Source: an uncultured Cytophagales bacterium (GTDB lineage Bacteria; Bacteroidota; Bacteroidia; Cytophagales; Thermonemataceae). From it: DNA of 64,000 nucleotides. The position numbers and the translations under genes were made by a program. How positions within the stretch are numbered: position 1 is the stretch's first letter; every line of letters starts with the position of its first letter. The notes under the pieces are model-generated. The model saw only the letters and a list, made by a program, of their open reading frames with translations, was not told the origin of the DNA and ran no database searches. This document shows, piece after piece, positions 48,140-54,004 of this stretch. The stretch is taken from assembly GCA_938002655.1 (NCBI GenBank), contig CALLAC010000003.1:1-64000 (forward strand), written 5' to 3'.

Positions 48140-50026
48140 TTAATACAAAACCCTGAATTTGATAGTGTTTTCGATGCGTTTTAGGTCGGTAATCACATCT
48201 TTGCTATACTCTTTGTCAATATCTGTAATAACATAGCCAATTTCTTCGTTGGTTTTGAGATATTGCCCTAAAATATTGATTTGATGACTGGCTAGTACTT
48301 GATTGATTTGAGCAAGGATACCTGCCGTATTTTTGTGGATATGCAAAAGCCGATGAGCATCCTTTTGAGCTGGAAGTTGCAAATTAGGCATATTTACGCT
48401 AGCATATGTACTACCTGTATTGATGTAATCAATGAGTTTTTGGGGTACGTATTCGCCGATATTTTCTTGAGCTTCTTCGGTGCTACCGCCAATATGAGGT
48501 GTAAGAATTACATTAGGCAAACCTCGCAATAGGCTATTAAATTCTTCATCATTATTTTTAGGCTCGTATGGGAAAACATCTACCGCCGCTCCTGCAATCT
48601 TACCACTCTTTATGTTTTTTACAAGAGCTTCAATATCAACGATGTGTCCGCGTGCTAAATTTAAGAAAATTACACCTTCCTTCATTAAATCAAACTCTTT
48701 TTCACTTATTAAGTTAGTATTTTCTTTTCTGCCGTCTACGTGTAAACTTACAAAATCTACTTCTTGCAAAAGTTCTTCAAGGGTATTGCATTTACGAGCA
48801 TTTCCCAAAGCAAGCTTATCCACAATATCATAGAAATACACTTGCATACCCAAAGCCTCTGCTACTACCGAAAGTTGCGAACCAATATTACCATAGCCTA
48901 CAATTCCCAGCTTTTTCCCTCTGATTTCACGACTATTTTTGGCTGATTTATCCCATATTCCTTTGTGGGTAAGATTACTTTTTTCAAAAATTCTCCTTGT
49001 AAGCATAATCATCTCGCCGATGGCTAATTCTACTACACTTCGGGTATTGCTATAAGGAGCATTGAAAACTGCTATACCTTTGTGCATGCAAGTCTTCAAA
49101 TCTATTTGGTTAGTACCAATACAAAAAGCACCTATGGCTATGAGTCTTTCGGCATTAGCCAACACTCTGTCAGTAATATTAGTTTTGGAGCGAATACCCA
49201 GAATTGAAATATCTCGGATAGCCTCGCACAATTCGGCTTCGTTCAGAGCTGTTTTTAGCAACTCTACTTGATAGCCTTCTTTTTCAAAAATAGCTTTGGC
49301 TTTGGGGTGTATGTTTTCTAAAAGTAAAACTTTGATACGATGCTTGGGATAAGAGACTTGCATAGGCAGTTTATGTATGAACAAGAACTCGTCTAAATTA
49401 GGTAAAACATAATCAGCTTTGGCAGTAACACTTTCACGTTTGATATTTTCAGTGAAAGCATAGAAACGATTGGCGAGCCCTGCTTCACGCATTTGGTAAT
49501 CAGTATAACCATCTCCTATTACATACACTTCGCCTTCAAGATTTAAGGCTTTGAGCTGAAGCACTTTGCCTTCGTTTTGAGCAAGTAAATGGCTGGTATC
49601 GTAACCAACGATATTTCCGCTCTCATCGAAAAGAAAAGTATTAGCAAAAACATTTTCGGGCTTTATGCCGTATTCGCTTACAATAGGCACAATAAACTCC
49701 CGAAAACCGCTGGAAATAATGAGGATGTTATTGGCAAACTGCTCAAAAAATTGTTTATTTCTCTGTATAGAAGGCGATACTTTGGTTTTCAGAAACTCAA
49801 TGAGAGCTTCAATATGCTTTCGATGAGCAGAAAGCAAAGCTACACGCTTACGCAGGGCATCGGCAAAAGAAATTTTTCCTTCCATACCTGCTTGGGTGAT
49901 TTGCTCAATTTGAGTGATACGCTTTTTACCTTCGGGGGCATCCTGCAAGGCAATGCGAGCCAATTCATCAAGCCCCTCTACTTGTGTAAAAGTGCTGTCA
50001 AAATCAATGATGATATAGCTTTTCAA
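48140..50026 (-). CDS. serA: Fused phosphoserine phosphatase / 3-phosphoglycerate dehydrogenase
   Basis: A 628-residue fusion of two serine-synthesis enzymes. Residues 1-215 are a HAD phosphatase of the SerB type: motif I DFDSTF with D8 and D10, motif II IISSGF (103-108), Lys154, motif III GDGYTD (171-176). Residues 230-550 are phosphoglycerate dehydrogenase: NAD fingerprint GYGNIGSQ (377-384), catalytic arginine in NTRSVVEL (329), and the histidine in TPHIGGSTEE (511). Residues 558-628 form an ACT domain, the usual serine-feedback site. serC is not adjacent. The first and third steps of the pathway are thus physically joined. Confidence 0.93.
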   Translation of the reverse strand: MKSYIIIDFDSTFTQVEGLDELARIALQDAPEGKKRITQIEQITQAGMEGKISFADALRKRVALLSAHRKHIEALIEFLKTKVSPSIQRNKQFFEQFANNILIISSGFREFIVPIVSEYGIKPENVFANTFLFDESGNIVGYDTSHLLAQNEGKVLQLKALNLEGEVYVIGDGYTDYQMREAGLANRFYAFTENIKRESVTAKADYVLPNLDEFLFIHKLPMQVSYPKHRIKVLLLENIHPKAKAIFEKEGYQVELLKTALNEAELCEAIRDISILGIRSKTNITDRVLANAERLIAIGAFCIGTNQIDLKTCMHKGIAVFNAPYSNTRSVVELAIGEMIMLTRRIFEKSNLTHKGIWDKSAKNSREIRGKKLGIVGYGNIGSQLSVVAEALGMQVYFYDIVDKLALGNARKCNTLEELLQEVDFVSLHVDGRKENTNLISEKEFDLMKEGVIFLNLARGHIVDIEALVKNIKSGKIAGAAVDVFPYEPKNNDEEFNSLLRGLPNVILTPHIGGSTEEAQENIGEYVPQKLIDYINTGSTYASVNMPNLQLPAQKDAHRLLHIHKNTAGILAQINQVLASHQINILGQYLKTNEEIGYVITDIDKEYSKDVITDLKRIENTIKFRVLY

Positions 50027-50155: not shown

Positions 50156-50578
50156 TTACTTTGCAGGTTGGCAAAGGTCAATTACTTTTAGCATAGTTTC
50201 TTTTGCGAAATCTATGTTCATGTAATCGGTAGGTTTCCACTCTGCTCCTTTTTTAGAGGATTTTCTCCAGAAATCCAAGTCCATAGCAGTAGTGAAGTTT
50301 TTTTGGAAATGTTTAATTTGAGCGTTCAACACTTCGTTAAGTTCTTCTACTGATTTTACTTGAGCAACACGGATAAGAGAATCGAACCAGTTGCTTGCCA
50401 AATTTTCTTGAGCTTCTATTGCTTCCTTGATGAAATCAGGAGCATTGTCAAGACCTACGGTTTTTTTCACGTTAGCAAAAGCTTCCTTCAACGTGTTTTT
50501 TACTTTTACAAGAGCTTCTTGGTTTTGCTCAGCCATTTTGTTTACAGCTTCAGTAGCCGCATTCTTTGCAGTTGCCAT
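50156..50578 (-). CDS. Phasin-like protein
   Basis: A 140-residue helical protein with Ala/Lys/Glu-rich amphipathic N-terminus (NAATEAVNKMAEQNQEALVKVKN) and segments ASNWFDSLIRVAQVKSVEEL and IKHFQKNFTTAMDLDFW that match the general pattern of phasin-family proteins, which coat polyhydroxyalkanoate granules. No PHA synthase is in the window, and similar proteins exist in organisms without PHA, so a granule role is only a possibility. It has its own promoter and terminator and hence is a single-gene unit. Confidence 0.65.
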   Translation of the reverse strand: MATAKNAATEAVNKMAEQNQEALVKVKNTLKEAFANVKKTVGLDNAPDFIKEAIEAQENLASNWFDSLIRVAQVKSVEELNEVLNAQIKHFQKNFTTAMDLDFWRKSSKKGAEWKPTDYMNIDFAKETMLKVIDLCQPAK

Positions 50579-50778: not shown

Positions 50779-51660
50779 TCAAGCATTTTCCTGAATAAAA
50801 TCTAATAAATCTTCAATTTTGGCTAAAATAAAGACATTTTCAGGAGTATCCAGCCCTTGTCCTATTACTTGACTGCCTGTGAGTATGATTTTACTTTCAG
50901 GGAAAGACTTTGAAATTTCATAAATGTATTTCTGTATCTGCTGAAAAGAGGGTGAGGAAGTAATTACACTGAAAAGAAATTCGGGCTTGTATATTTTGTA
51001 AGCCTCTTTGAGGTCGTTTAGTGGTACAGTCTGACCTAGGTAAATTGTTCTTTGTTTTCGGCTACGCAAAATATAATTGGTAAATAGTAGCGAAAGTTCG
51101 TGCCATTCGCCCTCAGGCAAGAAAAGCATATACTTTTTGCCTTCGGTATAATTGGGTTTGAGATGATCAATGGCCACAATAATTTTTTGTCGTATCAAAT
51201 GAGAAATAAAATGTTCTTGGGCAGGGTTGATAGTGCCTGCAAGCCACAAAATACCGATTTTTTGTAAAAAAGGGAAGATTATCCGAATCATTGTATTTTC
51301 AAAGCCCATCTGCTTGATGCTCTGCGAAAGTAGATACTCAAAGCGTTCTTCGTCCAAATCCATCATACAGAGCATAAAAGCCTGAATTTTATCTTGGGAA
51401 TCAGTAGATTTCTCTGTAAGACGAATAAGTTCGGCACGTAGTTCTTCTGCTGACATCTGAGCGATTTGCGAAATTTTATGCCCATGTTTGTTGAGTACCG
51501 AGATATTGAGAATGAGTTTGAGGTCAAAGTCGTCATAGTAGCGTATATTGGTGTCTGTACGTTTAGGTTTAAGAATATCGTATCGTTGCTCCCAAACACG
51601 CAAGGTATGGGCTTTGATGCCCGAAAGGGTTTCTACGTCTTTAATAGAATAATAACTCAT
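50779..51660 (-). CDS. CarH/LitR-like B12-binding MerR regulator
   Basis: A 293-residue transcription factor. Residues 3-70 form a MerR helix-turn-helix (YSIKDVETLSGIKAHTLRVWEQRY). Residues 90-165 form the helical cap of B12-binding proteins, with W139, E149 and H150 in the spacing W-x9-E-H. Residues 175-290 form the Rossmann-like cobalamin domain with GEWHELSLL, where H187 corresponds to the lower-ligand histidine of CarH. These residues match those of Thermus CarH (W131, E141, H142, H177), so light control through adenosylcobalamin is plausible. Carotenoid genes, the usual targets, are absent here. Confidence 0.88.
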   Translation of the reverse strand: MSYYSIKDVETLSGIKAHTLRVWEQRYDILKPKRTDTNIRYYDDFDLKLILNISVLNKHGHKISQIAQMSAEELRAELIRLTEKSTDSQDKIQAFMLCMMDLDEERFEYLLSQSIKQMGFENTMIRIIFPFLQKIGILWLAGTINPAQEHFISHLIRQKIIVAIDHLKPNYTEGKKYMLFLPEGEWHELSLLFTNYILRSRKQRTIYLGQTVPLNDLKEAYKIYKPEFLFSVITSSPSFQQIQKYIYEISKSFPESKIILTGSQVIGQGLDTPENVFILAKIEDLLDFIQENA

Positions 51661-51814: not shown

Positions 51815-52025
51815 GTATGAAAAAACTACTTTTTAATAACTGCTTTCTTGTATTACGTGCAAATTTGTGTAAAGTTTCAAAAAAAGTATAACTTTTTTGA
51901 AAACCTGTAAGATTTGAAAAATACTTTTTTCATTTCATAAAAAATTTTTGCAAATGGTGCAAGCCATAAGCTGTTTCATTATCCAAGCATTTGTAATACG
52001 CGAATGCATTATACATAAAAATTTG

Positions 52026-52049
52026 AACCGAAATGGCTCGGTTTTTGTT
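52026..52049 (+). terminator. Terminator-like hairpin in lipoprotein leader
   Basis: AACCGA (52026-52031) pairs with TCGGTT (52038-52043) and is followed by a T-run (TTTGTTT). It is 38 bp before the ATG of the Trp-rich lipoprotein, and a weaker GCATT/AATGC hairpin (51987-52007) precedes it. The order suggests an attenuator or the end of an upstream short transcript. Confidence 0.45.
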
Positions 52050-52086: not shown

Positions 52087-53166
52087 ATGAAAAGGCATTG
52101 GATATATTATATTTTACTTGCATGGGGTACTTTTTCTTGTGCTTCGCAGGGAAGAATTGTTTCGCAAAATGATGAATACGATGACGTATATTTTGTAGGT
52201 GATGATATAAAGAAAGCTCAAATTCGCCAAAATCAAAGAGTTTTAGAAAGTGACGGTCTGACAAGCGATGCCTACAATAGCGAATATGACCAAAAACCTA
52301 TTAGCAATTTTAGTAATCCTGATGCTATAGATTATCCTGTTGCACAGGGTGGTAGCTTGTATGTACCTATGAATAGCCAAAGTGCTAACTGGAATAATTA
52401 CAATTCTTGGAACGATAATTGTTGGAATACTTGGAGTAGTTGGAATAGTTGTTGGAGTTGTAATGGATGGAGCTACGGTTGGAACTCTTGGAATAACCGC
52501 TACTGGTATGGAGGTTGGAACAGCCCTTATTGGTACAATGGTTGGAATAATCCGTATTGGTATGGAGCCGCTTGGGGTAGCCCCTACTGGAATACTGGTT
52601 GGGGAAATGGCTGGTACATAGGTTATGGCTATGCCTATAACTATGGTTGGAATTCTTGGAATAGACCTTGGGGCTGGAATACTGGTTGGGGAAATACTTG
52701 GTTATGGAACGACAATCGTCTCCCTCAAAATAGCCTATACATAGGTCCTCGTGCTTCGGCGGGTAGAGGTAGTAATTTTATCAGAAATAATCCTAATCCA
52801 AGATTGCAGTCAAATAACAATGATAATAGCAATCAAGGAAACAGAGTGATTACAGATGGTAGAATAAGAAACTATTCCTCTGATACTTACACTCCTACAC
52901 AAAGCAACGAAGTTCGCACAGGTAGAACTAAAACAGAAAGAAGCAGTATCAACGCCGAACGCTACAATAATTCCAATTCATCAGAGCGTTATGAGAATAG
53001 AAATAGAACCTCTTGGGAAAGTAGAAGTAACTCTAATAGCCCTTTTTCTTGGGGCAGTGGTAGGGAAAGAAATTCTTCAGGTGGAAGTTTTGGTAGCAGC
53101 GGAAGTGGAGGTTCTTCGGGTGGAAGTTCGGGTAGGAGCAGAACAGGTGGCAGAGGAGGAAGATAA
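52087..53166 (+). CDS. Tryptophan-rich repeat lipoprotein
   Basis: A 359-residue exported protein with hydrophobic N-terminus ending in a probable lipid cysteine (C18, TFSC). Residues 28-95 are acidic, with EYDDVYFVGDD, seen in similar Bacteroidota proteins. Residues 102-207 hold 25 tryptophans in 106 residues, with Gly, Asn and Tyr, and repeats of about 10 residues such as YWYGGWNSP, YWYNGWNNP and YWYGAAWGSP. Residues 225-359 are disordered, rich in Ser, Asn, Arg and Gly, ending in GRSRTGGRGGR. No catalytic motif is visible. A structural, adhesive or surface-coat role is inference. It is monocistronic with a terminator. Confidence 0.85.
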   Translation: MKRHWIYYILLAWGTFSCASQGRIVSQNDEYDDVYFVGDDIKKAQIRQNQRVLESDGLTSDAYNSEYDQKPISNFSNPDAIDYPVAQGGSLYVPMNSQSANWNNYNSWNDNCWNTWSSWNSCWSCNGWSYGWNSWNNRYWYGGWNSPYWYNGWNNPYWYGAAWGSPYWNTGWGNGWYIGYGYAYNYGWNSWNRPWGWNTGWGNTWLWNDNRLPQNSLYIGPRASAGRGSNFIRNNPNPRLQSNNNDNSNQGNRVITDGRIRNYSSDTYTPTQSNEVRTGRTKTERSSINAERYNNSNSSERYENRNRTSWESRSNSNSPFSWGSGRERNSSGGSFGSSGSGGSSGGSSGRSRTGGRGGR

Positions 53167-53185: not shown

Positions 53186-53216
53186 AAAGGCGAGATTTTA
53201 CTCGCCTTTTTTTATT
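53186..53216 (+). terminator. Intrinsic terminator after the Trp-rich lipoprotein
   Basis: A 9-bp stem AAAGGCGAG/CTCGCCTTT with a 6-nt loop is followed by TTTTATTTTTC. It overlaps the last codons of the convergent truB. Confidence 0.85.
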
Positions 53217-53928: not shown

Positions 53929-53929
53929 G

Positions 53930-54004
53930 TGGAGTTTGAGGGATTCGAACCCCCGACCCTCTGCTTGTAAGGCAGATGCTCTGAACCAGCTGAGCTAAAA
54001 CTCC
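53930..54004 (-). tRNA. tRNA-Val (anticodon TAC)
   Basis: A complete cloverleaf on the minus strand: acceptor GGAGTTT/AAACTCC, D-arm TAGCTCAGCTGGTTCAGAGC, anticodon stem TCTGC/GCAGA around loop CTTACAA, and T-arm GGGGGTTCGAATCCCTC. The anticodon TAC reads valine codons. The CCA end is not encoded. It has its own promoter and a strong terminator. Confidence 0.97.

Follow-up and report, generated by a model that had tools for sequence, protein, structure and literature searches.

A tryptophan-rich protein of an uncultured Cytophagales bacterium belongs to an unnamed Bacteroidia family genetically paired with a FadL-superfamily barrel

Introduction

What use does a bacterium have for a secreted protein in which one residue in four, over a stretch of more than a hundred, is tryptophan? 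The question is raised by a gene in a 64,000-nucleotide stretch of DNA from an uncultured Cytophagales bacterium (hereafter, the window). A first-pass annotation, made from the sequence alone, described the product as a lipoprotein under strong selection for its tryptophans and proposed a surface-exposed, adhesive or holdfast function. We asked whether the frame is real, whether tryptophan is what selection retains, and whether the protein has relatives or partners that suggest a different role. On this analysis the odd tryptophan-rich protein stands at the extreme of a family whose partner is obvious.

Results

The frame at 52087-53166 on the forward strand encodes 359 residues. Residues 102-207 comprise 25 Trp, 22 Asn, 16 Gly and 14 Tyr, and cysteines occur at positions 18, 112, 122 and 125; our recount agrees with the first-pass annotation on the 25 tryptophans and on Cys 112, 122 and 125. 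The window has 99 stop-to-stop frames of 106 aa or longer, and this one, at 25 Trp per 106 residues, is the densest in tryptophan. The second densest, a membrane protein resembling apolipoprotein N-acyltransferase (a name given by reading of the sequence), reaches 13 per 106. The features of the locus are as follows.

52025..52044, +, leader hairpin with a 7-bp stem, terminator-like, followed by TTTTTGTTTG
52087..53166, +, the 359-aa DDVYF-family gene (from frame, composition, orthologues and dN/dS)
52087..52140, +, signal peptide ending in the probable lipidated Cys18, with an imperfect lipobox, TFSC (from sequence; AFSC, VFSC and LGAC in orthologues)
52141..52371, +, acidic N-terminal linker, residues 19-95, with a weakly predicted helix at 38-55 and an NPDAxDYP stretch (from alignment and model)
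52180..52194, +, DDVYF motif, residues 32-36, 14 residues past Cys18 (from alignment)
52372..52710, +, Trp/Asn/Gly/Tyr-rich core, residues 96-208 (from composition; pLDDT about 35)
52711..53163, +, basic Ser/Asn/Arg/Gly tail, residues 209-359 (from composition and alignment)
52744..52770, +, GPRASAGRG at the start of the tail, resembling the YYGPR that closes the core of class-wide members
53186..53209, +, intrinsic terminator, a 9-bp stem followed by a T run; it shares bases with the 3' end of the opposite-strand truB

The gene is present in one copy in the genome and stands as a single-gene unit, as had been noted, with neighbors divergent on one side and convergent on the other; the gene next 3' is the convergent truB, not a barrel gene (see below). 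The terminator of the first-pass annotation is present, at 53186-53209. Its leader hairpin also exists at 52025-52044, with conservation limited to the nearest congener: it is intact there and degraded in two more distant congeners, and an Rfam search of the leader gave no match. Other genes nearby include a MerR regulator with a B12-binding domain (50779-51660, -), divergent from the 359-aa gene across a 426-bp gap; a phasin-like protein that scores under the Pfam cut-off (50156-50578, -); and a 628-aa serine-pathway fusion (48140-50026, -) whose two parts are a SerB-like HAD phosphatase domain and a SerA-type D-2-hydroxyacid dehydrogenase, the latter with an ACT domain at its C terminus. A tRNA-Val (53929-54004, -) lies between truB and a fabH-like gene, and the mechanical truB ORF wrongly spans it.

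The core had been described as near-repeats of about ten residues. It is repetitive, but the clean ten-residue period does not hold: most tryptophans are spaced 3-5 residues apart and the aromatic autocorrelation peaks at 9 (0.31). The core DNA shows weak, decayed tandem repeats with units of 9, 18 and 27 bp. Near-perfect short core repeats, such as (NNGW)n (L037) and GWGNSWNN (L015), are seen in two relatives, which suggests repeat slippage as the source of growth and decay of those cores.

Orthologues in three congeners are 84, 67 and 52% identical to the window protein. Against the nearest of them, dN/dS is 0.12 for the N-terminal part, 0.13 for the core and 0.12 for the tail, and all 25 core tryptophans are kept, compared with 64 of the 88 other core residues (Fisher p 0.001). 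The frame is real and under purifying selection, and within the genus such selection extends to tryptophan.

Neither the 359-aa protein nor its relatives gave a usable match in Pfam and NCBIfam scans, and a contig search with the 359-aa protein alone as query returned no relatives. A profile built from eight members, on the other hand, identified relatives in 49 of the 291 genomes of the order, and the protein is a member of an unnamed family spread over the class Bacteroidia, that is, most Bacteroidota. Its plan is a Sec signal peptide followed by a DDVYF-type motif, a linker of acidic character, a core rich in aromatics, Gly and Asn and, last, a basic tail of Ser, Arg and Gly. We defined members by a signal peptide with DD(V/L/M/I)Y(F/Y/G) 10-14 residues past a lipidated Cys, or a few residues past a site resembling that of signal peptidase I (SPI-like), and by a core rich in aromatic residues, Gly and Asn with a basic Ser/Arg/Gly tail behind it; a barrel gene downstream is usual and not defining. 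The window protein has each element, with Cys18, DDVYF at 32-36, and an aromatic/Gly/Asn core ahead of a basic Ser/Arg/Gly tail. Among 148 members, 88 signal peptides are lipoprotein-type and 45 SPI-like. In an enlarged set of 119 lipoprotein-type members the motif lies 12-13 residues past the Cys in 88 and 10-14 in 114, and in SPI-like members it is mostly 3-7 residues from the cleavage site. Asp32 and Tyr35 are invariant in an alignment of 18 members. The last 120 residues of members carry a median net charge of +14, and the proximal part is acidic.

Tryptophan itself is not what the family conserves. Across the 148 members the core contains 0-24 Trp per 100 residues, with the window genus ranking first, and Trp is anticorrelated with Tyr (r -0.45) and Phe (r -0.37). 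The Algoriphagus terrigena member (L188) is free of Trp, and its core is of a Tyr/Gly/Met kind. Since Trp is swapped for Tyr or Phe elsewhere in the family, the family trait is aromatic (aromatic/Gly) richness, and Trp is the choice of the window genus, at the extreme of the family. The Trp-specific role that had been suggested is not supported: homologues without a Trp-rich region, which the first-pass annotation had named as counting against it, do exist, as far as Trp as such is concerned. Nor are the homologues short and N-terminal, as the first-pass annotation had it; they are full-length and paired with a FadL-like barrel. Searches of the open-access literature on tryptophan-rich or aromatic disordered Bacteroidota lipoproteins gave nothing relevant, and the same was true under "vitellogenin", which we take to be a misannotation name for such genes.

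The window protein is a probable lipoprotein, as had been proposed, with Cys18 as the probable lipidated residue. The lipobox TFSC departs from [LVI][ASTVI][GAS]C at -3 and -2; the AFSC, VFSC and LGAC of orthologues come nearer to it. Surface lipoproteins of Bacteroidota carry acidic residues just past the Cys (PMC5080379, PMC12578637), and as the signal we took at least two acidic residues soon after the +1 Cys (K-(D/E)2, Q-A-(D/E)2 or SDDDD). The window protein, which reads CASQGRIVSQ at this point, has no acidic residue there and lacks this signal. In the six positions past the Cys, 114 of the 119 lipoprotein-type members have none and the other five have one. Given this absence in 114 of the 119, a periplasm-facing position at the outer membrane is a simpler inference than surface display.

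By itself, the protein is probably disordered. AlphaFold2 models of the window protein (18 sequences; pLDDT 40) contained only the helix at 38-55 besides the signal peptide, and those of a class-wide member (25 sequences; pLDDT 45) were disordered, predictions that are limited by low alignment depth. The disordered tail of the first-pass annotation is predicted here as well; structure prediction of the Trp-rich core, which it had recommended, yielded no confident fold (pLDDT about 35). A Foldseek search with the model of the class-wide member returned only noise, as expected at pLDDT 45.

The gene order around family members pointed to a partner. In 26 of the 41 loci found by the family profile in the order, an outer-membrane barrel gene lies directly downstream on the same strand, usually after a gap of 8-100 bp, and in 25 of the profile-found loci proS is divergent upstream. 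In a converse test we located loci with only the barrel profile and then read whichever gene lay directly upstream. Among order genomes negative by the family profile, a family gene was directly upstream in 32 of 38 loci (29 with the motif), and among named Cytophagales in 78 of 80 (75 with the motif). Two control loci from a genus known to be unlinked had no family gene upstream. Class-wide, an automatic rule recognized a family gene upstream in 34 of 40 loci; in the remaining six it was recognized by eye, with motifs such as YDGVYF and DDRYYS. The motif-plus-tail rule picked up 2 unrelated ORFs among 608 neighbors. The barrel is present in 252 of 291 order genomes and 235 of 256 class genomes. 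The family protein co-occurs with it in 11 of 17 barrel-positive genomes (65%) versus 0 of 19 barrel-negative ones, a difference whose p of 2e-5 is overstated, as barrel absences cluster in few lineages and phylogeny was not corrected for. The family gene and the barrel gene are genetically paired, although their adjacency could mean shared regulation only.

The layout with a divergent proS and DDVYF gene is also found outside the order (L288, L289, L292, L295), and in L289 and L295 the barrel gene can be seen downstream; in this layout the DDVYF gene shares its intergenic promoter region with a tRNA synthetase gene. An apparent natural fusion of family protein and barrel in G507 (956 aa) has an unread base, seen as X in the translation, at the junction, and we did not use it.

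The pairing has exceptions, among them the window genus and the genus of G028 and G043, in which the two genes are unlinked. In the congeners G001, G002 and G003 the barrel gene is elsewhere in the genome. This unlinking in the window genus means that adjacency is not needed for keeping the protein, and linkage is thus not obligatory. In the window genome the only match to the barrel is a distant BamG2-like gene. The genes that flank the barrel in G001, the nearest congener, isocitrate-dehydrogenase-like and TPR, have no close counterparts in the window genome either (best 42% and 27%). Because both are missing as well, the barrel gene of the window genome is probably in an assembly gap rather than lost, and we do not claim a loss. 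The barrel region seems to assemble badly: in G003 the gene is split over two contig ends (L148 on C134, L146 on C41), and in the window genome the whole neighborhood is absent.

The barrel is about 500 aa long, of outer-membrane type, and forms its own conserved group. Its profile matched the solved structures of PaFadL (3dwo, E 6e-7) and TbuX (3bry, E 1.2e-6), and one barrel member scored above the cut-off for Pfam Toluene_X (PF03349). By these matches the partner barrel is assigned to the FadL superfamily. It weakly resembles PorV and BamG, with all NCBIfam scores under their cut-offs. BamG was rejected as the partner barrel, since these genomes have a true BamG gene besides.

Discussion

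We consider the protein best explained as a disordered chain anchored at the outer membrane and partnered with a dedicated FadL-like barrel, an explanation that we regard as evenly poised between right and wrong. Membership of the family, its architecture, purifying selection, the linkage to the barrel and the missing surface-export signal are shown by the results above; lipidation, the physical complex, the membrane side, the ligand and the task of the protein we infer, as follows. The protein would be exported by Sec and, in the window genus, probably lipidated at Cys18. It would stay at the outer membrane, where the conserved N-terminal DDVYF segment would dock on a FadL-superfamily beta-barrel dedicated to it, as a rule the product of the next gene. 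A long disordered chain would extend from this docking site, acidic linker first; the aromatic core might stack against hydrophobic ligands, against glycans or against the barrel, and the cationic Ser/Arg tail might bind peptidoglycan or the phosphates of lipid A, most probably facing the periplasm. That DDVYF is a docking element is likely, given the fixed distance between anchor and motif, the placement of the motif near the mature N terminus in members that lack a lipid, and the class-wide linkage to the barrel. It also has an analogy in BamH, which uses its lipidated N-terminal tail to occupy a groove of the FadL-like BamG (PMC12611786, PMC12578637).

Two other readings we find unlikely, to the same degree. 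The protein could be a periplasmic tether, an outer-membrane lipoprotein that attaches to peptidoglycan or lipid A phosphates by its aromatic core and cationic tail without the barrel, linkage then reflecting co-regulation only. The lack of an export signal, the basic tail (median +14) behind an acidic proximal part, and the unlinking of gene and barrel in two genera all speak for a tether; the class-wide adjacency and apparent co-loss with the barrel speak against it, as do members with an SPI-like site, which have no anchor of their own. Just as improbable, in our estimate, is that the chain is a cargo or trans-lumen passenger, threaded or exported by the barrel and partly outside, like RcsF in E. 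coli barrels. The adjacent FadL-type barrel gene, a disordered chain of about 300 residues and the RcsF lipoprotein/barrel precedent (PMC4942254) would fit; the models (pLDDT 40 and 45) are too low in confidence to judge, and bulky aromatic side chains seem ill-suited to threading.

A shade less probable still is the function first proposed, a surface adhesive, holdfast or matrix protein that exposes its Trp core and Arg/Ser tail on the outside and adheres to substrates by them. Low-complexity chains rich in aromatics and cations do resemble adhesive materials, and the nearest congener retains every core tryptophan. The proposal loses ground because the acidic export signal (PMC5080379) is missing from 114 of 119 lipoprotein-type members, the family occurs in most Bacteroidia regardless of lifestyle, its constant pairing with a FadL-like barrel is untypical of adhesins, and Trp proves replaceable. 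The pairing points to an uncharacterized two-part envelope device rather than a lone adhesive.

PorV, the shuttle of type IX secretion (T9SS), is a FadL homologue (PMC12578637), and the partner barrel has weak PorV-family matches, so that a component or substrate of type IX secretion or gliding had to be considered. We think this very improbable: the barrel occurs in six genomes without SprA, the T9SS core (G320, G327, G344, G357, G415, G508), in one of which, G508, the family gene adjoins it (L262), and many SprA-bearing genomes have no barrel. This distribution, with barrel and pair occurring without SprA, excludes T9SS as a requirement.

Low-complexity drift, a functionless growth of TGG/AAY repeats, is scarcely credible even with the decayed repeats in the core DNA, the perfect (NNGW)n runs of L037 and a composition that differs from genus to genus, since purifying selection already contradicts it (core and tail both have a dN/dS of about 0.12, with 25 of 25 Trp kept) and the same architecture is preserved class-wide.

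Returning to a docked partner of the barrel, a broader and distinctly more tentative proposal, which we would sooner doubt than accept, is that most Bacteroidota possess an undescribed device, in which a FadL-superfamily barrel and a disordered aromatic- and arginine-rich lipoprotein docked by a DDVYF plug, its chain possibly threading or gating the barrel, might serve the traffic of lipids or hydrophobic molecules, or envelope sensing. An intrinsically disordered chain rich in stickers would then be coupled to a dedicated barrel. The outer-membrane machinery of Bacteroidota (BAM with BamG and BamH, T9SS, SUS) has only recently been seen to differ from the E. coli model, and a gene pair adjacent across Bacteroidia, the first half of which has no Pfam or NCBIfam name, is a good candidate core component of the envelope in this phylum.

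Other DDVYF-family proteins share the N-terminal motif, linker, aromatic core and basic tail with the window protein, whereas the window genus is the Trp extreme and lacks barrel adjacency; class-wide members also differ from it in carrying YAARIRRF, GYYDPYYTN and YYGPR stretches. PorV/PorQ and FadL/OmpP1 (Toluene_X, PF03349) belong to the superfamily to which the partner barrel is assigned, from which the latter is set apart by its length of about 500 aa, its own conserved group and its sub-cut-off NCBIfam scores. RcsF with its E. coli barrels (PMC4942254) is likewise an outer-membrane lipoprotein with a flexible segment that works with a beta-barrel, but the periplasmic domain of RcsF is folded and its barrels are general ones, whereas the barrel of the DDVYF protein is a dedicated neighboring gene. 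Another parallel is BamG-BamH of the Bacteroidota BAM (PMC12611786, PMC12578637), in which a lipoprotein docks on a FadL-superfamily barrel through a conserved N-terminal tail and which, as is the DDVYF/barrel pair, is widespread in Bacteroidota. BamH, however, is a surface lipoprotein that is folded and bears an acidic signal. The window protein has no such signal and no predicted fold, and its partner barrel is not BamG; it is not BamH, and resembles it in the way that it may be held at a barrel.
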